This document shows, in pieces, positions 477 to 25,870 of a stretch of 40,249 nucleotides of DNA; the stretch's first letter is position 1, and each line of letters opens with the position of its first letter. Below the pieces are notes generated by a model. That model did not search any database. It was not told where the DNA came from and saw only the letters and a program-made list of their open reading frames with translations. Source of the stretch: Thermotogaceae bacterium (lineage in GTDB: Bacteria; Thermotogota; Thermotogae; B21-G9; HyVt-16). The stretch spans positions 1 to 40,249 of the forward strand of contig JARRBB010000011.1 in assembly GCA_029981435.1 (NCBI GenBank). Reading direction: 5' to 3'. Both the position numbers and the translations under genes were made by a program.

Positions 477-1094
477 ATGAGATTTCTACTTGGTAGCCCT
501 TTGCTGATAGAAGAATTTGGCACCGTAGATGTTTTGATCTACGGTGGTTTTTTGCATACTATTTCAGACACAGCCATTACAATTCGTGGTGATGGCTCTC
601 AGGCAGAGATTTACAAGAGTGGCTCCCTAGTCGCAAGACGAAAAACCAGTAAAGATGTAGAGGTTGAAAAACTATTTTTTGAGCCGATAAAGGGTTTTAA
701 GGTTTTTTTAGGAATAAATGATGATTTACAGGATGCTGACAATTTCAGATTGATATTTTATCTTGGAATACCGTTAACGGTTGTTTTCGCCGACAGAATA
801 GCAATAGAACCTCAGGAAGTTTTTGCGAGATTCTGGCCAGTTGCTCAGGATAATTTTTCTGTTGTTGTTTCGTGTCTGAAAGATGATAAGAACAACTCTT
901 TTTTTTACAGTGTTTTCGCCCCAATAGAACTCACTGGTGATAAAACAGGGGTGATCTGTAATCTGCAACCACATTATTACTTCGAGTTCAACTTTTCAAC
1001 TTTGAATCAATTGAAACGTAAAGATCCTGTCTATCTTAAAATGAAAGATCCATCTTATCTTTCGTTTCTGAAAAAACATTTTAAAGAACAGTAA
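477..1094 (+). CDS. Conserved-looking protein of unknown function (205 aa)
   Basis: I do not recognise a family. The 205-residue product has no signal peptide and no long hydrophobic segment. It is rich in beta-strand-like alternating stretches (residues 1-60 and 80-130) and ends in a basic segment (LKRKDPVYLKMKDPSYLSFLKKHF). The ATG has AGAGGTG seven bases upstream, and the gene ends 13 bp before the prenyl synthase start. Codon use matches its neighbours, so it is probably real and cotranscribed. The unusual feature is the strong terminator-shaped hairpin within codons 15-26, which should limit its expression from the rpsT promoter. Confidence 0.75.
   Translation: MRFLLGSPLLIEEFGTVDVLIYGGFLHTISDTAITIRGDGSQAEIYKSGSLVARRKTSKDVEVEKLFFEPIKGFKVFLGINDDLQDADNFRLIFYLGIPLTVVFADRIAIEPQEVFARFWPVAQDNFSVVVSCLKDDKNNSFFYSVFAPIELTGDKTGVICNLQPHYYFEFNFSTLNQLKRKDPVYLKMKDPSYLSFLKKHFKEQ
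521..553 (+). terminator. Intrinsic-terminator-shaped hairpin inside the unknown gene, after rpsT
   Basis: CACCGTAGAT (521-530), loop GTTTTG, ATCTACGGTG (537-546), then G and six T. The 10-bp stem is perfect. It lies 71 bp after the rpsT stop but inside the next reading frame (codons 15-26). By shape this is a full intrinsic terminator; whether it works while the frame is being translated is unknown. Confidence 0.65.
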
Positions 1095-1107
1095 GGGAGT
1101 GTACAAC

Positions 1108-1983
1108 TTGTCTTTCAATTACGAAGACATTGTTCGAAGGTTTAACGAACATATTTTTAAGAAGATTCCGCATTATCTGGAAGATCTTCCTGAAGAATAC
1201 TTCAAGTCCATTGAATACACTCTAAAAGCAGGCGGAAAGAGGATAAGACCCTTGATAATCTTTTTTTCTGGAAAAATGTTTTCATTAAGCGACGAAATTC
1301 TTTTCGATCTGGGCATGCTTTTAGAAATTCTTCACACTGCTTCTTTGATTCACGATGACCTTCCTGCAATAGATAACGACGATTTTAGAAGAGGTGTTCC
1401 AACCTGTCATAAGGTTTTTGGTGAAGCCCTCGCAATACTTGCAGGAGATGGGCTGATATTTCTTTCGTTCGAGATTTTAAGTAAGCTCAGCATAGATTTG
1501 CAGGCCAAAGAAAGACTGGTTAGAGAATTCTCTGAACTCGGTGGATTGAGAGGCATGGTTAGAGGAGAAGTCAAAGATGTTCTTATGACAGGAAGAAGCT
1601 TCTTACTCGAAGAAATTATAAAAATGTACGAAGATAAAACTGGTGCCCTTTTTGGTTTGGCCTTTGAGGCTGCCGCTATATGTTCCAGGGAATACGATAA
1701 AGCACAAAAATTAAAACAAATTGGTAAAAATTTTGGGATAGCCTTTCAAATATTCGATGATATAAAAGATATTGTGGGTGATTTTGAAAAAATAGGCAAA
1801 ACCCCTGGCAAAGATATCAAACAGAATAAGCCGACAATCGTGAAAGTTCTGGGATTGAGTGAAGCGGAAAAATTAGCAAATGATTATTATTCGAAAGCTT
1901 TACAGACCTTAAGTGAATTTCACAATTCACATGATTTGGTTGAATTTCTTAATTCCATAAAATCACTCTTGATTGAAAGGTAG
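1108..1983 (+). CDS. Polyprenyl (farnesyl/geranylgeranyl) diphosphate synthase
   Basis: Catalyses head-to-tail condensation of isopentenyl diphosphate with an allylic diphosphate in the cytoplasm, feeding quinone, carrier-lipid and membrane isoprenoids. The first aspartate-rich motif is LIHDDLPAIDNDD (about residue 85) and the second is FQIFDDIKDIVG (about residue 210). GGKRIRPL near residue 40 binds IPP. About 291 aa, normal for the IspA-type family; chain length cannot be read reliably. I chose the TTG at 1108 because AGGGAG lies eight bases upstream, whereas the GTG at 1099 overlaps that site. The gene overlaps the ribosome region of the next gene, so they are probably cotranscribed. Confidence 0.88.
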   Translation: MSFNYEDIVRRFNEHIFKKIPHYLEDLPEEYFKSIEYTLKAGGKRIRPLIIFFSGKMFSLSDEILFDLGMLLEILHTASLIHDDLPAIDNDDFRRGVPTCHKVFGEALAILAGDGLIFLSFEILSKLSIDLQAKERLVREFSELGGLRGMVRGEVKDVLMTGRSFLLEEIIKMYEDKTGALFGLAFEAAAICSREYDKAQKLKQIGKNFGIAFQIFDDIKDIVGDFEKIGKTPGKDIKQNKPTIVKVLGLSEAEKLANDYYSKALQTLSEFHNSHDLVEFLNSIKSLLIER

Positions 1984-1987
1984 AATC

Positions 1988-4549
1988 ATGAAAAAAATTT
2001 TGAATTTGATTCTCGAAACTTTCCTCAGTTTTTTTCAAAAAATATGGAAAAGAAGATTGATATTCATAATGTTGGTTTCTGTCATCGCTGTAATTGTTGT
2101 AATCCTTAGCTTTACTGTTTTAAATAAAAAAGAGCAGGTGATTGTAAAAGCTTCAGAACAAACACCCGTAAACATAAACAAACTTCAAATCATAGTACCC
2201 AACGGTGCCTTTCCATCCAACAAAAAATTCATAATTAAGGAGATTGACAAAAACTCAGAAATTTATACTTATGCAACCAAAAACGAAGACTTTGTAAGTG
2301 AAATGTATGAGGTTTCTCCTGAAGATGATAAAGAAGAGCTGGCTCTTTTACCTTTGACTTTACGATACAATGTTCCAAAGCAGTATTACCTCGGTGATAA
2401 TTTCCATAATCTTTCCCTTGGATACCTGGATAGAGATACAAAGATTGTAAGGAGATTCTACGGAAGTGAGCTGATAAAGGATGGAGAAAACATTTACATA
2501 GAAGCGAAAACTTTTCACACTTCCATAATAGGATTGATAGCCAAAAAACCTACCAGTGAATCTTTCGGTCTGAAAAAAGTTGTGGACAAACCAGAAAACT
2601 ACAAGCCCTACATACTTGTGGTACCAGGTATTGATGAAAATTTCACTGGAGCAATCCCGAACACCTACTCAGACAATGAACCACTTGGAAAAAACTTCTG
2701 GGAGATTCTTTTTCCAGATAGAAGTATCTGGTTGTATAGATATCCACTTAAAGATTCAAGACCAAACATATATGTTGAAGCTTCAAGAAGTTTCTTTAGA
2801 GAATTTGGTCGAACTGACTACATAGTGTATGAAGCCAAAAGACTTTCAACCGAACTGAAAAGAATTCCGTTCAAATTCGATGTAATAGCTCATGGAATTG
2901 GAGGATTGATAGTAAGGTACGCAATTGAGAGTGATCCAACTATCAAGAATGTCCGAAGGGTTGTATTGATATCCACACCAAATTTAGGGACCAACCTTGT
3001 AAATCCAGTATATTTGAACGCACTTTACGGTAAAAGTGATAGCGCTCTGGCAGAGATCTATGGTTTGAATACTGATAGTATTTCTTATATAAAAAACATC
3101 GTCACCGATTATCTTGAAAAGATAAACGTTTTCTGGGAGTCTCTAAAACCTGGAAGCAAAACACTGGAAGAACTCAATTCTTTTGGAATGAGGAATGATA
3201 TTGATTACCTTGCTTTATGTGGTACATCGATAAACTTTCCTATAAATATCCAAAATTCAGAATTGGCAAAATTCTATCCCGAATTTCTTGAAGGTACTGG
3301 TGATGGAATTGTAACCGTAAGCAGTGCTACTCTCAATGGAAAACTCAAGTCAAAGGTTTTTAACTATTCCTTTCATGAACTTTACCTACAAAAAGATGTT
3401 CTGGAAACTATCAGAGAGTATCTTGAGGATATAGATGTACCAGAACCATATACATTTAAAACCGATGATTTCAAAGAGAAATTACAGAGTGAATCCGAAG
3501 TAAACAGCGAGTTTTTCAGCACGGAGACAACCACAGAAAACACATTAAAAAAGCCAGATATTCCACCTGAAACTTCTCATTCAACTTTCAAGAGTACCAA
3601 CACAGCCATCCAAAGCAAAGTAAAAATAGAGGGATTAAAAAATGATCGGAATTTTAGAAGATTTTACCCTGAAACAGTAAATTTGGCAGAAATAACAGAA
3701 GAATGCAGAAAAATCGCGGTATTGTCAAATCGGATATTCATTCTGTGTAAGGAAAATCTCTACAGATTGGAAAATAAAGGAAAACTCGTAAAACTATCAG
3801 ACACAACACCAGATTCGTTTTTCAACGTATGGAAAAATTCGGTATTTCTGTACAGTGATTCAAAGATAAAAATATTTGATAGAGATGGCAATCTGATATC
3901 AACTAAGAAACTATCAATAGAAGATAACGATTTGTTGGACGTATTTATGACCTCTTTTAGAATATACACATTACTCAAAGAGGACCATGATATTATCTTC
4001 AAAATCTTCGATCATTCAGGTAATTTGATGTCTTCAAAAAAAATCAGAGGAATAAGAGCTCATTTTAAGTATTCAGAGAAATACAATCAGCTATTCATCG
4101 TTTCCAACGATGAGATACTTTGTTATGACGTTTCAAATGATCAAGAAATCTTCGTTAAAACTGAAAGTTCTTTTAGAAAATACGCCTCTTTCTCCAGTGA
4201 AAGAAGATTAGAATTTGTTGATTTAGAAAGAATAAGTGAATGGTTGATAATACTGACAAAAGAATATGAAATCTTTGCAAACAATCTTCTAAACGGAGAA
4301 GTAATAAATCTGGGCTTTGGTGATGTAGGTTCAGAAAAACTCATTTTCGATACGTTAGAAACCATTTACGTTTTAGGAGAAAAAACCATCAATTTTCTGG
4401 ACTTTAAAGAAAACACAGTAAAAAGAGAGGAAAAATATGTGAAGTTTGATGAAAATGTGATTATAAATAGCACTGTCTTTAATAAAGAACTTTATCTGAT
4501 ATTGTCGGAAGGAACAAAAATGAAGGTGGTCAAATTAAAGTTCGATTAG
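1988..4549 (+). CDS. Membrane-anchored alpha/beta-hydrolase-like protein lacking the catalytic serine, with C-terminal propeller-like region
   Basis: 853 residues. One transmembrane helix near the N-terminus (about residues 22-46) follows a basic stretch, so the bulk should be outside the membrane. Residues ~205-480 resemble the PGAP1/lipase-type alpha/beta hydrolase fold: YILVVPGID at the start, FDVIAHGIGGLIVRYAI at the nucleophile elbow, LISTPNLGT after it, an acid position in GTGDGIVTVSSA (Asp ~439) and a His in SFHELY (~463). The elbow normally reads GHSxGG; here the serine is replaced by Gly (~303). A low-complexity Ser/Thr/Glu linker (~495-545) leads to repeated beta-strand units (~560-853) resembling a beta-propeller. 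The ATG at 1988 follows AAAGGTAG; an in-frame TTG at 1973 is less likely. The 3' end overlaps the convergent HTH gene by 4 bp. Confidence 0.7.
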   Translation: MKKILNLILETFLSFFQKIWKRRLIFIMLVSVIAVIVVILSFTVLNKKEQVIVKASEQTPVNINKLQIIVPNGAFPSNKKFIIKEIDKNSEIYTYATKNEDFVSEMYEVSPEDDKEELALLPLTLRYNVPKQYYLGDNFHNLSLGYLDRDTKIVRRFYGSELIKDGENIYIEAKTFHTSIIGLIAKKPTSESFGLKKVVDKPENYKPYILVVPGIDENFTGAIPNTYSDNEPLGKNFWEILFPDRSIWLYRYPLKDSRPNIYVEASRSFFREFGRTDYIVYEAKRLSTELKRIPFKFDVIAHGIGGLIVRYAIESDPTIKNVRRVVLISTPNLGTNLVNPVYLNALYGKSDSALAEIYGLNTDSISYIKNIVTDYLEKINVFWESLKPGSKTLEELNSFGMRNDIDYLALCGTSINFPINIQNSELAKFYPEFLEGTGDGIVTVSSATLNGKLKSKVFNYSFHELYLQKDVLETIREYLEDIDVPEPYTFKTDDFKEKLQSESEVNSEFFSTETTTENTLKKPDIPPETSHSTFKSTNTAIQSKVKIEGLKNDRNFRRFYPETVNLAEITEECRKIAVLSNRIFILCKENLYRLENKGKLVKLSDTTPDSFFNVWKNSVFLYSDSKIKIFDRDGNLISTKKLSIEDNDLLDVFMTSFRIYTLLKEDHDIIFKIFDHSGNLMSSKKIRGIRAHFKYSEKYNQLFIVSNDEILCYDVSNDQEIFVKTESSFRKYASFSSERRLEFVDLERISEWLIILTKEYEIFANNLLNGEVINLGFGDVGSEKLIFDTLETIYVLGEKTINFLDFKENTVKREEKYVKFDENVIINSTVFNKELYLILSEGTKMKVVKLKFD

Positions 4550-4914
4550 ATCAATGATTCTTTTTTCAACTCTTCGAAGGCTTTTTTAGCTATACCTCCG
4601 GCGATATGAAGTGGTTCTTCTTCAGATTCACCATTTATATATTTCAAAGCTTTTTCAGGATCAGAGTTCAAAACATTTCTAACAGTTGTGGTAGCTATGC
4701 CAAGCTCTTTTGCAATTTCATCGATAGTTTTATGCTTCAACTCCTTCAAAACCAGTATTAACGCAGCTTCAAGCAAAGAAGCTACCCAGGTTAATCTCTT
4801 ATAACTCACTATTTTTTTAGGACCTCCAAGAATTTGAATAGATCTCTCAAATATTTTCATACAAAGTTCGTCATCAGATAAAAGGGCATTTTTGTCAGGC
4901 TTGATCTCTTTCAT
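4546..4914 (-). CDS. Small HTH protein, KaiC-partner type (TIGR03879-like)
   Basis: 122 residues. A helix-turn-helix is clear at about 63-83 (KTIDEIAKELGIATTTVRNV), preceded by a hydrophobic helix (WVASLLEAALILVLKEL) that could form a dimer interface or bury against the HTH. The C-terminal HIAGGIAKKAFEELKK looks amphipathic. From family knowledge, a 'probable regulatory domain' next to KaiC-like ATPases is widespread in archaea, and both the sequence style and the adjacency fit it. It has an excellent ribosome site (GGAGGTGAG) that lies in the 15-bp gap after the KaiC-like gene, so the two form an operon. The DNA target is unknown. Confidence 0.7.
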   Translation of the reverse strand: MKEIKPDKNALLSDDELCMKIFERSIQILGGPKKIVSYKRLTWVASLLEAALILVLKELKHKTIDEIAKELGIATTTVRNVLNSDPEKALKYINGESEEEPLHIAGGIAKKAFEELKKESLI

Positions 4915-4929
4915 ATATTTCTCACCTCC

Positions 4930-5787
4930 TCAACTTAAGTTTGTTACTTCTTCCAGGGGTGGTCCCACTCTAACTACTCCACTATCATTTATTTCCAGCA
5001 AATGCGTACGTGGATCATGGCCACAGACTCTACAGCCATCAATCCTTATAGTTCTAATTACATCCCCAATTTTTCTACCATATAGTTGCGCCATTGACTT
5101 TGTATTCACAACCATCTTGGATAGAACAATAGTGCAGTCAGTTATATGAGGCACAGCGTAACCACCAGCAGCCTCAGCAGAATTCTCTTCATGACTACTG
5201 CGCTTTTGAGAAATGAATATGGCAGTTTGATAATGTTTTTTCATGATTTCATAGAGTTTTCTCACAACACTTCTTGCCGCTACTTCTTTGTTTTCATAAA
5301 GCCCGGTTATTGAATCTATAACGGTTGCCGTTATTCTGTTCTCTTCTATAGCCTTTGATATCAAATTGGTAAGATTCAAAACATCTTCACGAATTTCAGA
5401 ATGACTTGCCGCATCTATTATATAAATGTGTTCCTCAACGTTTTCCCAGGGGATTTTCAAAGCTTTTGAACGCTGTTTCAAACTTTGAATGAGAAACGGA
5501 GCAGGAATCTCAACCGTTATGTAAAGCACATTGTAACCCCGTGAAGCCTGATTCAGAGCAAATTGTTCTCCTATAAGTGATTTACCGGTATCGGATATAC
5601 CAGTTAAGTGAACAACAGTAGCCGAGGGAATACCGTTCAAGGAAACTTTTTTTATTTCATCATTCTCATCAAGCTCAAATGTGTAAAAAAGTTCATCCAG
5701 CCCTGGAACACCAGAAGGTATGCCGAACAATTTTGGAACTTTCTCCGATAATTTTGAAGCCTGAACAATCATCTCCTTCAATTCCAT
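4930..5787 (-). CDS. KaiC/RecA-superfamily ATPase (archaeal KaiC-domain type)
   Basis: 285 residues, a single RecA-like domain. Walker A is GISDTGKS at 63-70, the catalytic glutamate region is YITVEIP at ~89-95, and Walker B is TATVID with Asp158. SQKRSS (~193-198) matches the sensor/DNA-loop area of KaiC-like proteins. A C-terminal CRVCGHD (252-258) may bind metal but has only two cysteines. It lacks the second KaiC domain, so it is not a circadian clock protein. Family knowledge (TIGR03880-like, AF_0351 family) links it to signal transduction with the adjacent HTH protein. It starts at ATG 5787 behind AAGGAGGGATGG and is transcribed divergently from the hydrogenase. Likely ancestral transfer from archaea. 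Confidence 0.8.
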   Translation of the reverse strand: MELKEMIVQASKLSEKVPKLFGIPSGVPGLDELFYTFELDENDEIKKVSLNGIPSATVVHLTGISDTGKSLIGEQFALNQASRGYNVLYITVEIPAPFLIQSLKQRSKALKIPWENVEEHIYIIDAASHSEIREDVLNLTNLISKAIEENRITATVIDSITGLYENKEVAARSVVRKLYEIMKKHYQTAIFISQKRSSHEENSAEAAGGYAVPHITDCTIVLSKMVVNTKSMAQLYGRKIGDVIRTIRIDGCRVCGHDPRTHLLEINDSGVVRVGPPLEEVTNLS

Positions 5788-5885
5788 CCCTCCTTGAAAT
5801 ATCTTTTCATATATTTAGACTTTGAATCGAGTGCTAACAGTTTAAAAAAGTTGTATCAAAATTGAGGATGCAAAAAAAAAGGAAT

Positions 5886-5903
5886 TTGTGATATTATTAA
5901 CAT
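5886..5903. promoter_or_regulatory. Rex-like operator upstream of the hydrogenase
   Basis: TTGTGATATTATTAACAT resembles the Rex consensus TTGTTAA-N4-TTAACAA (or TTGTGAA in the left half), mismatching only the seventh and last positions. It lies 29 bp before the hydrogenase start and contains a TATTAT that could be the -10 box. Rex senses NADH/NAD+ and represses fermentative redox genes in many anaerobes, so the context fits. No Rex gene is in this window. Confidence 0.45.
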
Positions 5904-5932
5904 GTAGAAAAATCCTTCGAGGAGGTTATGAA

Positions 5933-7696
5933 ATGGCAGAACTGTTAAAATTTTTTGTTAATGACAGAGAATATACGACAGAAGTTGGTAAGACAGTTCT
6001 TGAGGCTTTGAGGGATAATGGGTTTTATGTTCCAACTTTGTGTTATCATCCATCATTGAGCGCTGTTGGTGCATGTAGGGTCTGTGTTGTTGAAATTGAA
6101 GGCGCAAGAAATCTTTCCACTGCATGTACTACAAAAGTTACGGACGGGATGAAGATTAAAACCAACTCAGAACGTGTGAGAAACGCTGTTAAATTCAACC
6201 TCGGATTGTTGCTCTCAAAACATCCGAACGAGTGTATGACCTGTTTCGTCGATGGTAGATGTGAGTTTCAGTCTCTTATAAGCAGATATAATGTAGAAGA
6301 TATGTTCCCAAAGAGTATTCGCGATTATCCTCTTGATGAATCAAGCCCTTCGTTGTTCAGGGACATGAGCAAGTGTATAAACTGCGGAAGATGTGTGAGA
6401 GCCTGTGAAGAATGGCAGGGGCTTTCCATTCTTTCCTTCGTGGAGAGAGGTTTTGAAACCTTACCATTGCCAGCATTTGGATTTCCAATCGCTGCAACGG
6501 ATTGTATAAACTGCGGTCAGTGTTCAGCTGCATGTCCAACAGGCGCTATTACTGAAAGACAGGACTTTAGAAAAGTTCTCGATGCACTTGAAAAACATGA
6601 TAAAGTCTTGATCTGTCAAACTGCTCCCGCAGTAAGGGTCGGAATAGCTGAAGAATTTGGAGCAGAACCTGGAACAATTTCCATAGGTCAAATGGTAGCA
6701 GCTATAAGAAGACTTGGTTTTGATTATGTTTTCGATACAAATTTTGCAGCAGACCTTACCATAATGGAAGAAGGCAGTGAGTTACTTGAAAGAATCAAAA
6801 CAGGTGGAAAATTCCCAATGTTCACTTCTTGCTGTCCTGGATGGGTGAATTTAATGGAAAAACTTTACCCCGAATACACTGAAAACCTGTCTTCTGCAAA
6901 ATCTCCACACGAAATGTTAGGTGCACTCGCTAAATCGTATTTTGCTGAAAAGATAGGTAAAAAAGCTGAAGATATAATGGTAGTTTCTATAATGCCCTGT
7001 ACAGCTAAAAAAGATGAGGTAACGAGAGAACAATTGAGAGCCAATGGAGTTCCAGATGTTGACGCAGTGCTTACAACAAGAGAACTTGCTAAACTGATAA
7101 AGATGAACGGCATTCCTTTCTTCTCGCTTCCTGAAGAAGAGTACGACCAGCCACTTGGAATCTCCACAGGTGCAGCTGCATTGTTTGCCGCAACCGGTGG
7201 TGTTATGGAAGCGGCTTTGAGAACAGCTTACGAACTCTACACTGGTAAAGAACTTCCAAAATTGGATTTCGATGATGTTAGAGGCTTCAAGGGAATAAAA
7301 GAAAGCGAAGTCGATCTGAACGGTAAAAAGATCAAAGTTGCGGTCGCACACGGTGGAGCGAACGTTATAAATTTGATTGAAAAATTGAAAAGCGGAGAAG
7401 TTTATTATGATTTCATAGAGATAATGGCATGTCCTGGTGGATGTATCGGTGGCGGCGGTCAGCCAAAATCAAGCAAACCAGATGTTCTTCAGAAGCGTAT
7501 TCAGGCAGTATACAGAATAGATGCTGAGATAACACCTATAAGAAAGTCTCACGAAAATCCAGCGATAAAGAAAATCTATGAAGAATATCTCGAACATCCA
7601 TTGAGCCACAAATCTCATCATCTGCTCCATACACACTATACAAACAGGAAAAAGAGGACAGTGGAAAGGCTCAAAGAACTTGTAAAAGATGCTTGA
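5933..7696 (+). CDS. Monomeric [FeFe]-hydrogenase
   Basis: 587 residues, cytoplasmic, reduces protons with electrons from ferredoxin or a similar carrier. Domains in order: an N-terminal [2Fe-2S] domain (Cys37, Cys48, Cys51, Cys65); a NuoG-like His/Cys [4Fe-4S] site (HPNECMTCFVDGRC, ~99-112); two [4Fe-4S] motifs CINCGRCVRAC and CINCGQCSAACP (~145-205); and the H-cluster domain with TSCCPGW (Cys300/301), MPCTAKKDE (Cys356) and MACPGGCIGGGGQP (Cys500/504). The ligand spacing is almost collinear with Clostridium CpI, and the first Cys of TSCC (proton relay) is present, so it should be active. A small-subunit-like tail (ENPAIKKIYEEYL..) closes it. The ATG at 5933 sits 7 bp after GGAGG; an upstream in-frame TTG/GTG extension is rejected. 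It overlaps the convergent ABC gene by 26 bp. Confidence 0.93.
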   Translation: MAELLKFFVNDREYTTEVGKTVLEALRDNGFYVPTLCYHPSLSAVGACRVCVVEIEGARNLSTACTTKVTDGMKIKTNSERVRNAVKFNLGLLLSKHPNECMTCFVDGRCEFQSLISRYNVEDMFPKSIRDYPLDESSPSLFRDMSKCINCGRCVRACEEWQGLSILSFVERGFETLPLPAFGFPIAATDCINCGQCSAACPTGAITERQDFRKVLDALEKHDKVLICQTAPAVRVGIAEEFGAEPGTISIGQMVAAIRRLGFDYVFDTNFAADLTIMEEGSELLERIKTGGKFPMFTSCCPGWVNLMEKLYPEYTENLSSAKSPHEMLGALAKSYFAEKIGKKAEDIMVVSIMPCTAKKDEVTREQLRANGVPDVDAVLTTRELAKLIKMNGIPFFSLPEEEYDQPLGISTGAAALFAATGGVMEAALRTAYELYTGKELPKLDFDDVRGFKGIKESEVDLNGKKIKVAVAHGGANVINLIEKLKSGEVYYDFIEIMACPGGCIGGGGQPKSSKPDVLQKRIQAVYRIDAEITPIRKSHENPAIKKIYEEYLEHPLSHKSHHLLHTHYTNRKKRTVERLKELVKDA

Positions 7697-8372
7697 TTTT
7701 GATGGTTAAATTCTGAATGTAATCGATCTTTCTGTTGAATTTATCAACATCGGGGGTAACTGTTTCTTTTACAGTAGAAGGGTTGCCCCCGATTATTATT
7801 ATTTTGTCACCGAGAATGGCTGCTTCTTCAGGATCGTGGGTAACTATTAAAGCACTTTTTATTTCATTCTTCAAAAGTTCTTTCAAAAACTCTATAAGTG
7901 AAAACTTGGTTTTAAGATCAACCGATGAGAAAGGTTCATCCATGAGGATAAGCTCTGGCTCCGATGCTAATGCCCTTGCAAAGTTCAGTCTTTTCTTCAT
8001 TCCTCCACTGAGTTTTGATGGTTTTGTTTTTTCAAATTTTTCAATACCAACTATTTTGAGTATTCTTCTGGCCTTTGAAATATCTGGAACTCTCATAACG
8101 AAAAGAATATTCTGTATCACATTTTTCCAGGGAATCAATCTATCGTCCTGAAAGACATAGGCTATCTTTTCTGTTTTAAGTTTGACTTTCCCAGAAGTTG
8201 GTATCTCTATTCCTGAAATTATGTTCAATAAAGTTGTTTTTCCACAGCCTGATTGTCCACAAAGCACCACGGTTTCTCCAGATTTAACATTGAAACCGAT
8301 GTTTTTCAAAACTTCTAAAGAGCCAAAACTTTTAGAGACACTTTCTAATACGAGAATCTTTTCTCTATTGAT
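7671..8372 (-). CDS. ABC importer ATP-binding protein (NitT/TauT type)
   Basis: Drives uptake through the permease encoded just upstream. Walker A GQSGCGKTT, Q-loop YVFQDDRLIPW, signature LSGGMKKRL, Walker B LILMDEP and H-loop VTHDPEEA are all present. The first ATG/GTG/TTG in frame is a TTG at 8309, but the 15-20 codons before it encode the expected first strand and A-loop (VLESVSKSFGSLEV), up to a stop at 8385-8387. Between stop and TTG there is no standard start; an ATC at 8370-8372, eight bases after GAGGTG, is the best candidate and is used here. An ATT at 8355-8357 or a frameshift out of the permease are alternatives. It overlaps the permease by 28 bp and hydA by 26 bp. Confidence 0.8.
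   Translation of the reverse strand: MNREKILVLESVSKSFGSLEVLKNIGFNVKSGETVVLCGQSGCGKTTLLNIISGIEIPTSGKVKLKTEKIAYVFQDDRLIPWKNVIQNILFVMRVPDISKARRILKIVGIEKFEKTKPSKLSGGMKKRLNFARALASEPELILMDEPFSSVDLKTKFSLIEFLKELLKNEIKSALIVTHDPEEAAILGDKIIIIGGNPSTVKETVTPDVDKFNRKIDYIQNLTIKIKHLLQVL
7749..7806 (+). terminator. Candidate hydrogenase terminator inside the convergent ABC gene
   Basis: ATCGGGGGTAAC (7749-7760) pairs with GTTGCCCCCGAT (7782-7793) over 12 positions with one G-T wobble. A small inner stem ACTGT/ACAGT lies between the arms, and a T-rich stretch (TATTATTATTATTTT) follows. It begins 53 bp after the hydA stop. The tail is interrupted by A residues, so termination may be partial. Confidence 0.4.
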
Positions 8373-9064
8373 CTCAACAACACCTCACTCAATATTCCAA
8401 GAAACACTAATAATAATGTGTACGCAAAAACATCAACAGTCTCGAGCTTGCTTTTTGCCCATGATATCTCCACACCTATTCCTTTAGATCCCGCCATAAA
8501 CTCAGCAACAACAACGGATTTCCATAAAAGACCACTTGAAACAGAAACAGCCGAAACAATGAACGGCAACAAGGAGCCAAGATAAATATCTCTGAAGATT
8601 TTAATTTTTCTAACTTTGTAAACCTTTGCCATTTCGACAAGTTTTTTGTCGATATTGAGAACTCCTTCATAGACGTTCAAAGCTATTACCGGAAAAAGCG
8701 TTATGAAAACTATAACCACAGGTCCTTTGTTCCCAATTCCCCACCAGAGTATGGCAAGTGCGAGCCAGGAAACTATCGGCACGGACTGAACAATCGATAT
8801 CAAAGGTCTTAATAACTCATAGAATAATTGGTTCAATCCCATCACAAATCCAACTATGAAGCCAAAAAAAATAGCCAGTGCAAAACCTGCAAACGCTTTT
8901 AAAAAAGTGCTCAACAGGGGAGAAAACAACTCCCCTGTTGTTATGAGCTGAATCAATCTCACAATGGTTTTAAAGGGAGACGGTAAAAGCAGTTCAGAAT
9001 TCACCATCAAAGTTGCTATTTCCCATAAAATAAGCGCAATTAAAATCCCAAGTATCTTCTTCAA
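8345..9064 (-). CDS. ABC importer permease (NitT/TauT/SsuC type)
   Basis: 239 residues with about six hydrophobic segments. The EAA loop is recognisable at EMAKVYKVRKIKIFRDIYLGSLLPF (~135-160), the contact with the ATPase, and the SVPIVSWLALAILWWGIG stretch is typical of the SsuC/TauC family. It starts with ATG overlapping the binding-protein stop by 4 bp (ATGA), implying translational coupling. A terminator-like hairpin lies at about codons 41-54. The substrate class (aromatic/sulfonate/pyrimidine/riboflavin-like) cannot be decided. Confidence 0.85.
   Translation of the reverse strand: MKKILGILIALILWEIATLMVNSELLLPSPFKTIVRLIQLITTGELFSPLLSTFLKAFAGFALAIFFGFIVGFVMGLNQLFYELLRPLISIVQSVPIVSWLALAILWWGIGNKGPVVIVFITLFPVIALNVYEGVLNIDKKLVEMAKVYKVRKIKIFRDIYLGSLLPFIVSAVSVSSGLLWKSVVVAEFMAGSKGIGVEISWAKSKLETVDVFAYTLLLVFLGILSEVLLRSIEKRFSY
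8901..8940 (-). terminator. Intrinsic-terminator-shaped hairpin inside the permease gene
   Basis: On the minus strand: CAACAGGGGA (8940-8931), a 9-nt loop, TCCCCTGTTG (8921-8912), AGCAC, then six T (8906-8901). The 10-bp stem is perfect. Flanking GCTC/GAGC could extend it past a 4-nt bulge. It lies 120 bp after the binding-protein stop, so it would make binding-protein mRNA exceed permease/ATPase mRNA. Confidence 0.55.
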
Positions 9065-10008
9065 TCATCATCACCTAAGTAGAAAAAATCTTCATTAGGA
9101 ACCCCACCCACAGCTTCTGGATCTACTTTACTCAGTTCCTTGAAGTACAGTTCTATCTCATCTCTGCAATCTGCCGCATAAATAAACTCGAAATGTGAAT
9201 TTTTCAGCGCATCCTGTAGAACCTTAACAGGGAAATTGCCCATAACTTCTGAAACATATTCCGTTGCCTTGTTTTCATTTTCAAACAGCCAGTTTAAAGA
9301 TTTCTTGTAAGATTCTATGAAGTCCTTGAAAAGTTCGGGATTGTTTTCTAAAAATTCATTTCTTACGAATATCCCTGAAATGGGTATTCTTTCTTTTTTC
9401 AAACCCGTTTCTTTGGCCCATTCACTCTGAATGTCGATGAGTATTTTACTATCTTTTACCTTGAATAACGAAAGGCTTACGAAAGGCTCTGGCAAAAGCG
9501 CATAATTTATTTTTCCTGAAGACAGCAACGCTACAATTTCTGGATTATTGGCGTACTTTACAAAAACATCTTTACCAATTTCCAAACCATATTTCTTGAA
9601 AAAGTATCTCATTATCACATCGCCCGTTTGTCCCGGACCAAAAGGTGTATATACTTCTTTTCCCTTTAAATCTTTTAGACTTTTAATATCATCGGATGTG
9701 CCAACAAGATAAAAAGCCTTCCAGGTCGACACTGCAACAAGTTTCAGTGGAACTTTTTTATTGTAAAGAGTCGCTCCGAGTGATACAGGTAAAAGCGCCA
9801 AATCTGCCTGTCCGCTTACAAGCATTGCTATCGCTTCGTCAGGGGTTTTCCATATTTTTAGTTCAAAATCATTCGTCGGTTTTATTTCACCGGAAAAAAG
9901 CCCAGCTGCTGGTAATAAAGTGGGACCTGCTGGATTTATAAACACACCTTTTGAAAAAGTAATGATACTTAAGATAATCAACAAAAATGTTATTACAAAT
10001 TTTTTCAT
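9061..10008 (-). CDS. ABC importer substrate-binding protein (NMT1/THI5-like)
   Basis: 315 residues. An N-terminal signal peptide (MKKFVITFLLIILSIITFSKG) without a lipobox cysteine suggests a secreted periplasmic protein. The mature part has the NMT1/SsuA-like arrangement: APPxx-like start (INPAGPTLLPAAGLFSG), KTPDEAIAMLVSGQADLALLP, YTPFGPGQTGDVIMRYF and ALLPEPFVSL. Such proteins bind small aromatic or sulfonate molecules, pyrimidines or flavins; the ligand is not identifiable. The true start is the ATG at 10006-10008 behind a near-perfect AGGAGGTGAT; the in-frame GTG at 10015 is part of that ribosome site. It is the first gene of the three-gene operon, with two overlapping TATAAT-like boxes just upstream. 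Confidence 0.85.
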   Translation of the reverse strand: MKKFVITFLLIILSIITFSKGVFINPAGPTLLPAAGLFSGEIKPTNDFELKIWKTPDEAIAMLVSGQADLALLPVSLGATLYNKKVPLKLVAVSTWKAFYLVGTSDDIKSLKDLKGKEVYTPFGPGQTGDVIMRYFFKKYGLEIGKDVFVKYANNPEIVALLSSGKINYALLPEPFVSLSLFKVKDSKILIDIQSEWAKETGLKKERIPISGIFVRNEFLENNPELFKDFIESYKKSLNWLFENENKATEYVSEVMGNFPVKVLQDALKNSHFEFIYAADCRDEIELYFKELSKVDPEAVGGVPNEDFFYLGDDD

Positions 10009-10076
10009 ATAAATCACCTCCTGAATTATATTATACTAGTAAAAAATAGTTTTTACATCGAATCAAAGTGTTCTTA

Positions 10077-10085
10077 TGGTATAAT
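10077..10085 (+). promoter_or_regulatory. Extended -10 promoter of the peptide-type ABC operon
   Basis: TGGTATAAT: TG (10077-10078), one base, TATAAT (10080-10085), 38 bp before the binding-protein start. No convincing -35 at 16-18 bp; TTTACA (10052) is too far. Extended -10 boxes recur in this window (127, 28193, 30056, 34764). Confidence 0.5.
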
Positions 10086-15470: not shown

Positions 15471-15489
15471 AATTCTATGTGAAATACTG

Positions 15490-17178: not shown

Positions 17179-17210
17179 AAAAAACTCTTCTTAATGGGAG
17201 GGAATAAACC

Positions 17211-19829: not shown

Positions 19830-21142
19830 ATTATTTAGAGGCTTTGAATTACCTTTATACGGATAGGAATTTTTCAAAAATTAGACCTGGTTTGAAAAGA
19901 GTGAAAGAACTCTTGGAACATTTCGGGAATCCTCAGAACCATTACCAGATTGTTCACATAACTGGTACTAACGGCAAAGGGAGTACCAGTTATTTCCTTT
20001 ACAGTATTTTAAAAAAGGTAACCGATTTGAAAGTCGGGCTTTACACATCGCCACATTTGAGTTCTTTCAGAGAAAGGATAGTTGTTAATGATGAGAAAGT
20101 ATCCAAAGACTATATAGTGGAATTTGTTAAAAGTGCAATTCCAATAGTTAAAAAGATGGATAGTAAAGGTCCCGAATACATGTCAACTTTTTTCGAATTA
20201 ACAACTGCTATGGCTTTTAAGTATTTCAAGGATATGGGAGTTGACATAGTAGTTCTGGAAGTCGGGCTCGGTGGAAGATACGACGCAACGAATGTGGTTG
20301 AAAATCCTCTGGTAAGTGTTATAACAACTGTAGATCTCGAACATACTCGAATACTTGGAGACACGATCGAAAAAATAGCTTTCGAAAAAGCAGGAATAAT
20401 TAAAGAAAATTCCCTTGTTGTTACTGGTGAAACAAAAGCAGGAGCTCTGAATGTGATAAAGGAAGAAGCAGTAAAGAAAAACTCAAAAGTTTATGTTTAT
20501 AATCAGGATTTCCGATATAAAAACATCAGACTTGCTTTGAATCAAAATCTTTTTGATTACGAAGGGATCAATAGGAAACTCGAAAATATCGAACTGACCA
20601 TGAACGGTAAACATCAATTTCTGAACTGTTCGATAGCACTGGCTGCATTTGAAAACATTGAAGAGCAACTTGGTTTGAGAGTATCAGATGAAAAAATCAA
20701 GGCAGCACTCAAGAACGCGGTATGGCCCGGAAGATTTGAACTAATCGAGTTCAATAGTAAGAGTCTGATAATCGATGGTGCACATAATCCGGCAGCTTTT
20801 AAGAAACTCAGAGAATCTATTGAAATTTATTTTCCAGATAAAAGGAAGATAGCAATCATAGGTATTTTAGATGATAAGGATTATAAAGCCATGCTTCAAG
20901 AAATAAAAGATGTTTTTGAAAAGATGATACTGACCCGACCCCTCAGTAATCGAACAACCAATATTATGGAAATTCACAGATATCTGAAGACTGTAAAACA
21001 ACAATCCGAATACATAGAATCACCTTTAAATGCTTTTAAAAAAGCAATTGCCGATTTAAAAGACGATGAAATACTTGTAGTAACAGGGTCTTTGTATCTG
21101 GCTGGTTATTTGAGAAATTACATCGATACGATAAAACGATAA
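19826..21142 (+). CDS. folC: Folylpolyglutamate synthase / dihydrofolate synthase
   Basis: 438 residues, adds glutamates to folate (and probably to dihydropteroate) using ATP. P-loop HITGTNGKGSTSYFLYSIL (~48-66), the omega-loop TSPHLSSFRERI (~75), LEVGLGGRYDATNVV (~147) and IIDGAHNPAAF (~312) are all family signatures. Starts within the valS stop (ATGA), so its translation is coupled. Substrate range cannot be read. Confidence 0.93.
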   Translation: MNYLEALNYLYTDRNFSKIRPGLKRVKELLEHFGNPQNHYQIVHITGTNGKGSTSYFLYSILKKVTDLKVGLYTSPHLSSFRERIVVNDEKVSKDYIVEFVKSAIPIVKKMDSKGPEYMSTFFELTTAMAFKYFKDMGVDIVVLEVGLGGRYDATNVVENPLVSVITTVDLEHTRILGDTIEKIAFEKAGIIKENSLVVTGETKAGALNVIKEEAVKKNSKVYVYNQDFRYKNIRLALNQNLFDYEGINRKLENIELTMNGKHQFLNCSIALAAFENIEEQLGLRVSDEKIKAALKNAVWPGRFELIEFNSKSLIIDGAHNPAAFKKLRESIEIYFPDKRKIAIIGILDDKDYKAMLQEIKDVFEKMILTRPLSNRTTNIMEIHRYLKTVKQQSEYIESPLNAFKKAIADLKDDEILVVTGSLYLAGYLRNYIDTIKR

Positions 21143-21156
21143 GAGGAGTGTAGAAA

Positions 21157-21774
21157 TTGGTAAAATTCTTGGAAGGAAAGGTTGAAAAGCTAACTTCTGA
21201 AGGATTGATACTGAATGTTTCGGGTATCGGGTTCCTCATAAAAACCAACCAATCTTTTCTAAGAAAACTTGAGAATGCAACCGAAGAAAAGATAAGGGTA
21301 TACGTTTCATTGATATTCAATCCAAATAACTTTTCCTTTGAGCTTTATGGTTTTGAAAATATAGAACAGTGTGAGCTATTCGAAGCTTTGAGAAGTGTTT
21401 CGAAGATCGGTCCAAAGATAGCCATGAAAATCATATCCAGTGTAGAGCCAAAACTCGTTGTTTCAATGATAGTAAACGAAGATGTTGAAAGTTTATCAAA
21501 ATTACCTGGAATAGGGAAAAAAGGCGCGGAAAGGATAGTAATGGAACTCAAAAACAAAATAGATCACGACTTTTCAGAGATCGTATATACAAATAATTTT
21601 TCTGAAGCTATCGAGGCTTTGAAAAATCTGGGGTATTCAAATACAATCGCCAGTCAGGCAGTGAAAACAGTTATGGAAAATTCAAGCGAACCAGTGGATA
21701 CGAGTGTCTTGATAAAAAGAGCTTTAAAGTATATAATGACCCAGGGGGAAAAGAAAAATGGTGGCGTCCCTTAA
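21157..21774 (+). CDS. ruvA: Holliday junction DNA helicase subunit RuvA
   Basis: 205 residues, standard length. Binds four-way junctions as a tetramer and recruits RuvB. Domain I OB fold (~1-65), two helix-hairpin-helix units (SVSKIGPKIAMKIISS ~80-95 and LSKLPGIGKKGAERIVMEL ~110-130) and a C-terminal UBA-like domain III (EAIEALKNLGYSNTIASQAV ~150-170). TTG start at 21157 behind GAGGAG. RuvB is not in the window. Its last 17 bp overlap the next gene. Confidence 0.95.
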   Translation: MVKFLEGKVEKLTSEGLILNVSGIGFLIKTNQSFLRKLENATEEKIRVYVSLIFNPNNFSFELYGFENIEQCELFEALRSVSKIGPKIAMKIISSVEPKLVVSMIVNEDVESLSKLPGIGKKGAERIVMELKNKIDHDFSEIVYTNNFSEAIEALKNLGYSNTIASQAVKTVMENSSEPVDTSVLIKRALKYIMTQGEKKNGGVP

Positions 21775-22255
21775 GTCTTTTAATTTAAATCCAACGCTTG
21801 GCTATAAATTGGATCCGGGAGAACCAGGGCTTGCATACAGCGCACCGGCAAGCAGGAGTATTATTCGAGTTCTGTCGCAGGAAGTTTCAAATCTTATAGC
21901 TTTTAAAAACGAAGCTCTTAGAAAAGGCGGAGTAGTTATATACAGTAAAATATCCTTGGATATGCAGAAAAGAGGAATTTTTCTTGCTGCTGTTGCAGGA
22001 AAAACCGAAGTAAGGATACTGATTCCGGGTGAAAAAGAAGTAATGGAATCGGGAAGACCTGAATCCGAAGACCCTCAGATTCGTCTCGAGAAACTCAAGA
22101 ACGAGATAGAGAGGGAACTTTTGATAGAAAATGATCAAGATAAAGTAGAAGAGCTGAAACAGAAACTGTTAATTTTAAACTCAATACTTAGCAATCCAGT
22201 GCTGAAGAATTCGGACTTTGTTGTTAAGGGATTGATGATAAACGATGTAGTCTGA
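21758..22255 (+). CDS. Protein of unknown function (165 aa) between ruvA and glmU
   Basis: I do not recognise a family. Residues 1-60 contain NPTLGYKLDPGEPGLAYSAP and a helix-like SQEVSNLIAFKNEAL; ~60-90 is a beta-rich stretch (GGVVIYSKISLD.. GIFLAAVAGKTEVRILIPG); ~110-145 is a charged coiled-coil-like helix (IRLEKLKNEIERELL...DKVEELKQKLLIL). No signal peptide or membrane segment. It starts at ATG 21758 inside ruvA, with GGGGGAAAAG as ribosome site, and sits 13 bp before glmU, so it is cotranscribed with housekeeping genes and likely real. Confidence 0.75.
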   Translation: MVASLKSFNLNPTLGYKLDPGEPGLAYSAPASRSIIRVLSQEVSNLIAFKNEALRKGGVVIYSKISLDMQKRGIFLAAVAGKTEVRILIPGEKEVMESGRPESEDPQIRLEKLKNEIERELLIENDQDKVEELKQKLLILNSILSNPVLKNSDFVVKGLMINDVV

Positions 22256-22268
22256 AGGTGGTAATAAT

Positions 22269-23684
22269 ATGTTCAAAGTTTTAATTCTGGCTGCTGGAAA
22301 AGGAAAAAGAATGAAATCTGAAATACCGAAAGTTCTACACAGGCTTTTAAACAGACCTATGATAAGCTGGGTTATAGAAACAGCCAGAAAACTTCATCCA
22401 GATGAGATGGGAGTTGTCTTAGGATACAAAGCTGATGAAGTACAGAAAGTTTTGAGCGAAGATATAAAAGTGTTTATTCAACCAGAACTTCTCGGAACCG
22501 GACATGCAGTTATGTGTGCCGAAGATTTTTTGAATTTTGATGGTGATCTTCTGATACTTTACGGTGATGTACCGAATATAAAAGCCGAAACCCTCGAAAA
22601 AATGCTTTCAAAGCACAGGGAAGAAAGCAACAGTATGACCATTTTAACAGCCTTTTTTGAGAATCCAACTGGTTATGGAAGAATATTGAGAAACGAATCG
22701 GGTAAAATCGTCTCAATAGTTGAAGAAGCCGATGCAGATGAGGAAACTAAAAAAATCAGAGAAATAAACTCTGGGATATACGTTTTTAAAGCTACTCACC
22801 TTTTAAATGGTTTAAAATATCTTAGAAATGATAACAAGCAGAGAGAGTATTATTTAACGGATCTCGTTAAGATCTTTCTTGAATCAGGGCAAAAGGTTGA
22901 AACATTTTTGGTTGATAATCCACGTGAGATCGCCGGGGTAAATGATAGAATACAGCTTGCAAAGGTTGAGAAACTTCTGAGGCTTGAAATAAACTATAGC
23001 CATATGCTCAACGGTGTCACCATAATCGATCCTGAAAGTACTTTTATAGATCCTGAAGTTAAAATTGAAAACGATACGGTTATCTATCCTTCAACTTTCA
23101 TATACGGTAATACCACTATTGGTAAAAAATGTGAAATAGGACCTTTCACAGTTATTAAGGATTGTAAAATAGGTGATAACGTCAGGATAGTTCAATCGAA
23201 CTGTGAAGATTCAGAAATTTTCTCCGGTACCTCCGTAGGACCATTTTCAAGGCTCAGGCCTGGTACAGTGTTAAAGGAAAATACGAGGATAGGTAATTTT
23301 GTAGAAGTGAAGAACTCTATTCTTGAATCGGGTGTTAAAGCAAATCATCTGAGCTACATCGGTGATTCGGAAGTTGGAGAAAACACAAATGTAGGTGCCG
23401 GTACTATAACATGTAATTACGATGGTTACAAAAAACACAGGACACGGATCGGTAAAAATGTATTCATAGGAAGTAATTCGGCACTTGTAGCACCTTTAAA
23501 AGTTGGTGATGGAGCTATAGTCGGTGCCGGTTCAGTGATAACTGAAGATGTTCCAGATGACTCGCTTGGAATTGCAAGGTCAAGACAAATAAACAAAGAA
23601 GGCTGGGCAAGGAAATGGCGCATGAAAAAAGAAAAGGAGGTGCAAGGGTTAAACCCCGAAAAAGAAGATGCCAAGAAAAAGTGA
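22269..23684 (+). CDS. glmU: Bifunctional N-acetylglucosamine-1-P uridylyltransferase / glucosamine-1-P acetyltransferase
   Basis: 471 residues; makes UDP-GlcNAc for peptidoglycan. Uridylyltransferase domain with LILAAGKGKRMKSEIPKVLH (residues 4-24) and LLGTGHAVMCAED (~77) up to ~225. Left-handed beta-helix acetyltransferase from ~250 with hexapeptide repeats and the active-site region VKANHLSYIGDSEVGENTNVGAGT (~355-380). The C-terminal tail (~445-471) is Lys/Glu-rich and overlaps prs by 17 bp; the family usually ends near 450-460. ATG after GAAGGTGG. Confidence 0.96.
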   Translation: MFKVLILAAGKGKRMKSEIPKVLHRLLNRPMISWVIETARKLHPDEMGVVLGYKADEVQKVLSEDIKVFIQPELLGTGHAVMCAEDFLNFDGDLLILYGDVPNIKAETLEKMLSKHREESNSMTILTAFFENPTGYGRILRNESGKIVSIVEEADADEETKKIREINSGIYVFKATHLLNGLKYLRNDNKQREYYLTDLVKIFLESGQKVETFLVDNPREIAGVNDRIQLAKVEKLLRLEINYSHMLNGVTIIDPESTFIDPEVKIENDTVIYPSTFIYGNTTIGKKCEIGPFTVIKDCKIGDNVRIVQSNCEDSEIFSGTSVGPFSRLRPGTVLKENTRIGNFVEVKNSILESGVKANHLSYIGDSEVGENTNVGAGTITCNYDGYKKHRTRIGKNVFIGSNSALVAPLKVGDGAIVGAGSVITEDVPDDSLGIARSRQINKEGWARKWRMKKEKEVQGLNPEKEDAKKK

Positions 23685-24618
23685 ATTCAAAATCTTTTCT
23701 GGTAGTTCCAACATACCCCTTGCAAAAAAAATAGCGGATTACATCGGAGTTGAATTGGGAAAAGTGGAACTCGGAAGATTTGCCGATGGAGAGGTCAACT
23801 TTAGAATTGGTGAAACGGTAAGGGGTTACGATGTGTTCATAATCCAATCAACCTGTAAGCCTGTTAATGAGAACCTTATGGAACTTTTAATAATGATAGA
23901 TGCTTTCAAAAGGGCTTCGGCTGGTTCTATCGCCGCTGTAATTCCGTACTATGGATACGCACGGCAGGACAGAAAGGCTAAAGGAAGAGATCCTATAAGT
24001 GCTAAACTAGTAGCAAATCTTCTTACGGAAGCAGGTGCAACAAGGGTAATAACCATGGATTTGCACAGCGAACAGATTCAGGGATTCTTTGATATACCGG
24101 TTGACAATCTGCAGAGCTTTCCAGTTTTTATAGAGAAGTTTAAGAACAGTGATGATATAGATTTAAGAGAAACTGTCATAGTTTCACCGGATGTTGGTGG
24201 CGTGAAACGCGCGAGAAGACTGGCAGAAAAACTTGGAGTACCTCTTGCAATAATGGATAAAAGAAGACCTGCAGATAATCAGGCCGAAATTTTAAATGTG
24301 ATAGGAGATGTCAAAAATAAAGTTGCCATTCTTTTTGATGATATAATTGACACTGCCAACTCTCTGAAAAAGTCGGCAGAGAAGATAAATGAACTTGGTG
24401 CAAAAAAAATAATAGCCTGTGCCACACATGCTGTTCTATCAGGGAGCGCTGTGGAAAATATAATGGAGTCTCCTATAAGTAAAGTTTACATAACGGATAC
24501 CATTCATAAAGAAAATCTGCCAGTAGAGAAATTTGAGGTTTTGAGTATAGCGAAGCTTTTTGGTGAAGCCATAATGAGGATTGTGAAAAATCTGTCAGTA
24601 AGTATATTATTCAGATAA
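23668..24618 (+). CDS. prs: Ribose-phosphate pyrophosphokinase (PRPP synthetase)
   Basis: 316 residues; makes PRPP from ribose-5-P and ATP for nucleotides, His and Trp. Signatures: FSGSSNIPLAKKIADYIGVELG (N-term), IPYYGYARQDRKAKGRDPIS (~97-116, flexible loop), DLHSEQIQGFFDIPVDNL (~130, metal) and the PRPP-binding VAILFDDIIDTANSL (~215-229). An in-frame stop just upstream fixes the start at ATG 23668, inside the end of glmU. The nearest strong ribosome site (GGAGGTG at 23637) is ~24 bases away, so initiation probably depends on coupling to glmU translation. The glmU-prs order is common in Gram-positives and Thermotogae. Confidence 0.96.
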   Translation: MPRKSEFKIFSGSSNIPLAKKIADYIGVELGKVELGRFADGEVNFRIGETVRGYDVFIIQSTCKPVNENLMELLIMIDAFKRASAGSIAAVIPYYGYARQDRKAKGRDPISAKLVANLLTEAGATRVITMDLHSEQIQGFFDIPVDNLQSFPVFIEKFKNSDDIDLRETVIVSPDVGGVKRARRLAEKLGVPLAIMDKRRPADNQAEILNVIGDVKNKVAILFDDIIDTANSLKKSAEKINELGAKKIIACATHAVLSGSAVENIMESPISKVYITDTIHKENLPVEKFEVLSIAKLFGEAIMRIVKNLSVSILFR

Positions 24619-24641
24619 ATAAATTGTAGGAGGGATACAAC

Positions 24642-25292
24642 ATGGTTCAAGCAGTCGAACTTGAAGTTCTGAAACGTGAAGAATCAAAAACCAGTAAAGC
24701 AAAAAAACTCAGAAGGAAAAATCTTATACCCGGAGTTGTTTATGGACCTGAAACCGAACCTTTGATGATAAGTGTTGATAAGACTAAAGTGGATTCGCTT
24801 TTAGCAAGGGTTAGCGAAACAACCCGTATCAAATTGCTGGTAAAAAGTAACGATGGTGTGATTCAAAAGAATGTATTTGTAAAAGAAATTCAGAGAAACA
24901 AAGTGAATGATTCTGTGATTCACATCGATTTCTATGAACCAGCAAAAGGACACACAATGCATATCCACATACCGTTGCATTTTGTTGGTAAGCCCAAAGG
25001 TGTCGAAAAAGGTGGACTCGAAGATATCATTCATCATGAATTGCCAGTAGAAGTACTACCGGATAAAATCGTTGAACATATAGAAGTAGACGTTTCGCAA
25101 GTTGATTTGGGTGAATCTTTGAGGGTCAAAGACATCCAGTTGCCAGAAGGAATAAAGGTAATGCTTGATCCTGAAGAAGTTATAATGACTATAATAGCTC
25201 CACGTGTTTCTGAAGAAGTAGTGGAAGAAGTTACTGAGGAAGAAGAACCCGAAGTAATAGGTAAAGGTAAGGAAGAAGAGGAGGAAGAATAA
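24642..25292 (+). CDS. rplY: 50S ribosomal protein L25 (general stress protein Ctc type)
   Basis: 216 residues, the long two-domain form of L25 that binds 5S rRNA. N-terminal L25 domain (~1-95, with LRRKNLIPGVVYGPETEPL), C-terminal TL5/Ctc beta domain (~100-190, HIPLHFVGKPKGVEKGG...VEVLPDKIVEHIEVDVS) and an acidic tail (VTEEEEPEV..EEEEEE). ATG 24642 behind GGAGGG. Followed after 2 bp by pth, a common pairing. A terminator-like hairpin 37 bp after its stop lies inside pth. Confidence 0.96.
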   Translation: MVQAVELEVLKREESKTSKAKKLRRKNLIPGVVYGPETEPLMISVDKTKVDSLLARVSETTRIKLLVKSNDGVIQKNVFVKEIQRNKVNDSVIHIDFYEPAKGHTMHIHIPLHFVGKPKGVEKGGLEDIIHHELPVEVLPDKIVEHIEVDVSQVDLGESLRVKDIQLPEGIKVMLDPEEVIMTIIAPRVSEEVVEEVTEEEEPEVIGKGKEEEEEE

Positions 25293-25294
25293 CC

Positions 25295-25870
25295 CTGATA
25301 AAGTTGCTTGTTGGACTGGGGAATCCAGGCCCACGTTATGCTTTCACAAGGCATAACGTGGGTTTTATGGTTATAGATGAAATACTCAAAGGTCACAGAT
25401 TTGATTATATTCAAAGAAATAAAAGTTATGATTTAGGGAAAATAACCATCGATGAAGAAAGTCTGTTTTTTTTGAAACCTTTGACATTCATGAATCTCAG
25501 TGGTACCGTTTTACCAGAGGTTTTAAATATTTTGAAAATCAATTACACTGAAATTCTGGTAATATACGATGATATTGCATTGCCACTAGGGAAAATAAGA
25601 ATTCGAAAAAACGATTCAAGTGGTGGACACAACGGTATAAAATCTGTGATCCAGTATCTTGGAACACAGGATTTTGCAAGGTTAAGGATCGGCATAGGTC
25701 CTAAACCTGAAGGCATTACACTGACTGATTTTGTGCTTGGTGAATTCACAGAAGAAGAATTCGACATATTGAAAAAAGTTCTTAAAATTTCTGTAGAAGC
25801 AATTGAATGTATATTACACAATGGTTTTGAAGAAGCTATGAGGGTTTACAACAGTTTCGAACTTTTTTGA
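25295..25870 (+). CDS. pth: Peptidyl-tRNA hydrolase
   Basis: About 191 residues; frees tRNA from dropped peptidyl-tRNA. Signature residues: Asn in LVGLGNPG, catalytic His in TRHNVGF (~23), LKPLTFMNLSG and Asp in IYDDIALPLGKIR (~94). The only standard start in frame near the beginning is TTG 25304, but it lies 19 bases from GAGGAGG and would cut off the first strand; CTG 25295 gives (M)IKLLVGLGNPG, the family pattern, with spacing of 7-10 to AGGAAG/GGAGG. I chose CTG; ATA 25298 is another option. Codons 12-24 form a 12-bp perfect hairpin. Confidence 0.9.
   Translation: MIKLLVGLGNPGPRYAFTRHNVGFMVIDEILKGHRFDYIQRNKSYDLGKITIDEESLFFLKPLTFMNLSGTVLPEVLNILKINYTEILVIYDDIALPLGKIRIRKNDSSGGHNGIKSVIQYLGTQDFARLRIGIGPKPEGITLTDFVLGEFTEEEFDILKKVLKISVEAIECILHNGFEEAMRVYNSFELF
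25330..25366 (+). terminator. Terminator-shaped hairpin inside pth, after rplY
   Basis: CCCACGTTATGC (25330-25341), a 9-nt loop, GCATAACGTGGG (25351-25362), then TTTT. The stem is a perfect 12 bp, and G-T pairs could extend it. It encodes the conserved GPRYAFTRHNVG of pth, and lies 37 bp after the rplY stop. Shape and place suggest attenuation of pth relative to rplY. Confidence 0.55.

Follow-up and report, generated by a model that had tools for sequence, protein, structure and literature searches.

The window, by which we mean the whole stretch of 40,249 nucleotides that was analysed, is a contig of a 1.96-Mb draft genome of the class Thermotogae. The genes and terminator-like structures considered here are listed by position and strand.

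175 to 450, plus strand: rpsT, ribosomal protein S20, with a single match per genome throughout the class
477 to 1094, plus strand: ORF 477, a gene after rpsT without a Pfam match, with a homologue at the equivalent place in another genome (G001/L174)
521 to 553, plus strand: terminator-like hairpin (521–546; 10 bp, loop of 6) and T6 (548–553) within ORF 477; the hairpin is missing from the sole homologue
7749 to 7805, plus strand: hairpin and T-rich tail, 53 nt past the hydA stop codon, within a convergent ABC ATPase gene (7671–8309, minus strand)
8345 to 9064, minus strand: ABC permease of the TauC/SsuC type (PF00528)
8901 to 8940, minus strand: hairpin (8912–8940; 11 bp, loop of 7) and T6 (8901–8906) within the permease gene; not conserved in 19 relatives
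9061 to 10017, minus strand: ABC substrate-binding protein, NMT1-like (PF09084/PF13379)
24642 to 25292, plus strand: rplY/ctc, ribosomal protein L25 (PF14693 and PF01386)
25295 to 25870, plus strand: pth, peptidyl-tRNA hydrolase (PF01195), with a probable CTG start (MIKLLVGLGNPG) and AGGAGG upstream
25330 to 25366, plus strand: conserved embedded terminator-like element, comprising the stem CCCACGTTATG/CATAACGTGGG (25330–25362) and T4, in codons for GPRYAFTRHNVGF

The pth reading frame probably begins at CTG 25295, which gives MIKLLVGLGNPG and lies 2 nt past the rplY stop codon, rather than at TTG 25304. Comparison with the curated families of Rfam gave zero matches in the window. Promoter-like sites were enriched between positions 24500 and 25900 (10 versus 3.8 expected), and one of them, a 10-of-12 match at 25041–25069 inside rplY, could drive pth.

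The four embedded structures of the original prediction (521, 8901, 25330 and 7749) all lie where, and in the orientation in which, it had placed them. The hairpin at 521–546 (plus strand) is a perfect 10-bp stem with a 6-nt loop followed by GTTTTTT (−16.5 kcal/mol, z −6.2), while that at 25330–25362 (plus strand) has an 11-bp core, or 15–18 bp counting inner pairs and wobbles, followed by TTTTATGGTT (z −7.9). At 8912–8940 (minus strand) a perfect 11-bp stem is followed by T6 (8906–8901) that begins 5 nt past the stem (z −6.0), and at 7749–7793 (plus strand), antisense to the ABC ATPase gene, a 13-bp stem, its inner region 19 nt long, precedes TATTATTATTTT (z −6.1). The permease hairpin is the weakest terminator candidate, because its T6 sits five bases off the stem. 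When codons were resampled for the same protein, each of the four hairpins exceeded chance (P 0.001–0.003), these being single-site values for sites that had been chosen by eye beforehand. The predicted orientation and spacing past the upstream stop codon (+70 at 521, +37 at 25330 and +120 nt at 8901) were both correct. The idea that the sites share one common geometry is not supported, as the distance between gene start and stem ranges from 26 to 197 nt.

Conservation of the pth hairpin was assessed across the class, in which pth was recovered from 98 of 101 Thermotogae genomes and 97 genes could be scored. Nearly class-wide in these 97 genes, rplY lies directly upstream of pth, usually 11–25 nt before the GLGNPG codons. 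The stem, CCCACGTTATG...CATAACGTGGG with an 11-nt loop region, is encoded in the codons for GPRYxxTRHNVG; 10–11 of its 11 pairs are kept in 63 of the 97 genes, and its exact pattern, searched in the 98 genomes with pth, was single-copy and within pth wherever it occurred. The chance of such a stem, given the amino acids and codon usage, is P ~0.001 per genus. Nearly one codon solution is allowed, since wherever a codon could vary, its partner in the stem is a base that the amino acid sequence dictates. CGT makes up only 7–16% of Arg codons in the stem-carrying families, and almost every genus uses TTT for the Phe past the stem, including those in which TTC is the common codon. As in an intrinsic terminator, the stem is stable, contains G+C and shows signs of RNA-level selection, and a U-tract follows immediately on its 3′ side. 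This tract is T6 in Petrotogaceae-type genomes and is short or interrupted in several genera (TTTTATGG in the window, TTTCTTG in some Thermotoga). An exact-pattern scan of all species also returned the same stem, perhaps not above chance, in the pth of three Clostridia (L069, L084 and L088; Eubacteriaceae UBA4266, Levyella and Pseudoramibacter). In those three, rplY was not detected and pth lies tightly behind a gene with a prs-like C-terminus.

The substitutions within the stem are strand-specific. Among the 63 well-paired genes, 23 wobble-type departures at stem positions were G·U and none was A·C. Changes to the encoded protein were accompanied by compensation on the other arm, with His in place of Arg in G037 (CCCACATTATG/CATAATGTGGG) and Ala in place of Val in G006 and G017 (CCCGCG/CGCGGG), and a compensatory change was also seen in G009 (CCCGCA/TGCGGG). 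Because G·U wobbles keep an RNA stem yet break a DNA palindrome, this pattern indicates that the pth element acts as RNA on the sense strand.

The position of the element turns over within the class, and it is the genomes lacking the GPRYxxTRHNVG stem that make the strongest case for its role. In 82 of 97 genomes, the first 250 nt of pth contain an embedded hairpin with a U-rich tail, versus 5.3 expected from codon shuffles; in 10 of the 15 remaining genomes an intergenic terminator occupies a widened rplY–pth gap, which brings the genomes with a terminator-like element to 92 of 97. In all ten Fervidobacterium-type genomes (genera g13 and g33, so named here from their kinship to named Thermosipho records), an ordinary terminator lies in a gap of 75–171 nt and pth lacks an embedded hairpin. 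Alternative hairpins were found inside pth in other genera. About 85 nt into the gene, genera g23, g36 and g37 carry TGCTCCCC...GGGGAGCG with a T-rich tail behind it and compensatory outer pairs in 4 of 6 (GG/CC, AG/CT, GA/TC), genus g14 carries ATCCACCTTTT...AAAAGGTGGAT at +82, and g5 and g19 carry a 12–13 bp stem at +159, then TTTT, in the RPLTFMNLSG codons. By comparison, an embedded terminator-like hairpin was found at 0–6% of other tight junctions. These comparisons of sequence strongly support a terminator role at rplY–pth that has been kept while its location moves between gene-internal and intergenic. In some genomes of f5 and f7 (L152, L145, L157 and L013), the GLGNPG codons at the pth start themselves fold into a hairpin, GGGCTTGGGAAATCCAGGCCC, which may be one more alternative site.

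ORF 477 is, on the alignment, a real gene, since the N-terminal part encoded ahead of the hairpin matches the homologue behind rpsT in the order's one other genome (G001). The rpsT hairpin is absent from G001, the sole homologue, and its position is a variable stretch; in many further genomes, rpsT is followed by an ordinary terminator or by a convergent gene. ORF 477 (477–1094) and its counterpart on L174 form a protein family directly behind rpsT that has so far been seen only in this order, and none of the relatives sought in named genomes was confirmed. The permease hairpin is not shared among 19 relatives, some of which have other hairpins. Two of the three named sites, 521 and 8901, show no conservation; as terminators they are plausible, but relatives offer them no backing. 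Among convergent gene pairs of the same genome, 4 of 70 had a terminator-like site in the facing gene versus 0 of 70 in a deeper control, consistent with the suggestion that the 7749 hairpin may end hydA within the convergent gene.

The frequency of such elements was estimated from stretches totalling 1.38 Mb (583 kb from the same genome, 500 kb from one Thermotoga and 300 kb from others), in which 754 tight same-strand junctions were scored on home-made gene calls. The original prediction had proposed comparing embedded stems with codon-preserving shuffles, and this comparison gave a statistical excess: the first 80 codons past tight junctions held 21 sense hits versus 3.7 expected, and successive deeper zones held 8, 4 and 4 versus 2.8, 1.9 and 2.0. 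After removal of the four pth sites and ORF 477, 16 sense hits were left. Genes without a tight upstream neighbour gave 6 hits versus 2.0 expected, and codon shuffles underestimate hairpins in the 240–465 nt zone (8 versus 2.8). Antisense-oriented hits in the same start zone numbered 10 versus 3.9 expected, so that orientation specificity is moderate and some of the extra hits may be something other than terminators.

Three further junctions were conserved in 7 of 7 Thermotoga genomes. These are xylose isomerase to DUF192 (stem at +197, with compensatory changes), purine nucleoside phosphorylase to a ZIP transporter (stem at +36, T7, with wobble changes) and POR-beta to HemN (stem at the GGGTPS motif, +174, with compensatory changes). 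The xylose isomerase gene we take to be xylA from PF01261 and general knowledge of the sequence. The HemN/GGGTPS and post-xylA DUF192 terminator-like hairpins belong to the loci L276 8538–10348 and L280 3848–5817. Taken together, the case for terminators within the start of the next gene is strong at rplY–pth, on class-wide conservation, compensatory changes and positional turnover, and strong too at the three Thermotoga junctions. The expected order of a high-demand gene followed by a low-demand gene fits L25/Pth, xylose isomerase/DUF192, PNP/ZIP, POR-beta/HemN and RpiB/PrmA. What had been envisaged as a general system survives in a reduced form: by their sequences, embedded terminators are a real minor class, of the order of 2% of tight junctions in Thermotogae, with three junctions conserved in Thermotoga and two of the originally named sites unconserved.

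We think it likely that the pth hairpin is a partial intrinsic terminator of the glmU–prs–rplY operon, one of the ~2% of tight Thermotogae junctions with like elements, and that it favours L25 over Pth. It would be written in the first pth codons because the junction leaves no intergenic room; in T. maritima the median intergenic distance is 5 bp, in a study that helped define transcription units with predicted terminators (PMC3636130). The hairpin would end glmU–prs–rplY transcripts at the RNA level, on the sense strand, and most, but not all, polymerases would stop there, leaving L25 in excess of Pth. As the terminator lies downstream of any promoter of its gene, full-length mRNA reads through it, and termination must be partial or relieved. 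Similar terminators would typically stand behind a highly used gene, where the codons of the next protein permit, at positions movable over evolution, and constitutive partial termination would set how much upstream product is made relative to the downstream one. What the sequences show is the hairpin itself, its conservation, its strand specificity, its exchange with intergenic terminators and the excess over shuffles; that polymerase stops there, how efficiently, and how this alters stoichiometry are what we infer.

The original prediction made ribosome occupancy the switch: ribosomes starting the downstream gene right behind RNA polymerase would melt the hairpin, and termination would occur only if the gene were not promptly translated. 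The hairpin does lie within the coding sequence, every full-length mRNA must cross it, and rplY and pth nearly overlap, which favours re-initiation. Against this, the conserved start-to-stem spacing that would permit ribosome interference was not seen, spacings running from 26 to 197 nt (26–44 nt at pth, ZIP and ORF 477, about 174–197 nt in HemN and DUF192, and about 90–170 nt at the alternative pth sites), and Fervidobacterium-type genomes use an ordinary intergenic terminator instead. The classification of bacteria by runaway transcription is said to originate with Johnson et al. 2020. A 2026 paper places Thermotogota among the runaway-transcription bacteria, in which polymerase outruns the ribosomes (PMC13323073). 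Our data fit this class, since the purine fraction of coding sequence is 0.55 and, in the two genomes sampled best, 44–54% of intergenic terminators are 12 nt or less from the stop codon. In such bacteria, a gene-internal terminator would be expected to work mostly whether or not the gene is being translated. Given the varying spacing, the Fervidobacterium-type swap and the runaway class, constitutive, partial termination is preferred and the ribosome switch appears unlikely. A bolder version, in which a class-wide selected terminator in the enzyme motif couples Pth supply to translation, with pth cut off when ribosomes lag and read through when they keep up, we hold to be about as unlikely. 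If true, the pth junction would be a sensor of transcription–translation coupling for a translation-rescue enzyme.

The hairpin might alternatively be a processing or 3′-end-protecting structure that sets the rplY/pth mRNA ratio post-transcriptionally. The stability of the sense-strand hairpin and the sometimes short U-tract would suit such a role, which is nevertheless improbable given a U-rich tail in nearly all genomes and the textbook terminators that substitute for the hairpin elsewhere. A palindromic site in double-stranded DNA for a protein, as a near-invariant stem sequence in single copy per genome could suggest, has largely been ruled out by wobbles that are strand-specific, being G·U and in no case A·C; the stem also gives way to unrelated sequences located elsewhere, and we give this reading very little credence. 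Coincidence between a conserved protein motif and codon usage seems equally remote. TRHNVG is conserved in Pth generally and three Clostridia pth genes share the stem, perhaps not above chance, but the same amino acids with ordinary codons yield the stem in only about 1 in 1000 draws, and genomes with an rplY–pth intergenic gap lack it.

The proposed partial intrinsic termination at pth has relatives among described systems. Like intrinsic (Rho-independent) terminators, including partial intra-operon ones, the pth element has a G+C-containing stem and a U-rich tail just past the gene to be ended; unlike them, it sits entirely within the next reading frame, where the codons of a conserved enzyme motif spell it out, and a whole bacterial class maintains it at shifting positions. 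ORF-internal 3′ ends have been mapped in Borrelia burgdorferi, for example 148 nt into potB (PMC10319736). Like the putative pth ends, these fall early in a gene further down the operon; unlike them, they were discovered by sequencing and their levels respond to spermidine, and the part of the account drawn on here notes neither conservation nor codon-level selection (PMC10319736). A likeness to the ribosome-controlled trp/his attenuators, through coupling of translation and termination, would arise only if gating held; no leader peptide or alternative antiterminator structure was seen at the pth site, where the hairpin lies in a structural gene. Intrinsic terminators and ORF-internal 3′ ends are thus already known kinds. 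A search of open-licence literature turned up neither a terminator described within pth nor one in a conserved enzyme motif that is class-wide and replaced at other positions.

These results suggest that an additional function at the RNA level can keep the codons for an essential, conserved motif of an enzyme near-invariant, and that the role of a terminator can persist while the element hops between gene-internal and intergenic positions. They would help to explain how genomes with almost no room between genes adjust the proportions of their proteins, and embedded terminators would be a concrete confounder for gene annotation and for studies of codon evolution. Thermotoga and Petrotoga may provide a clean test bed for whether gene-internal intrinsic terminators fire when ribosomes lag behind polymerase.
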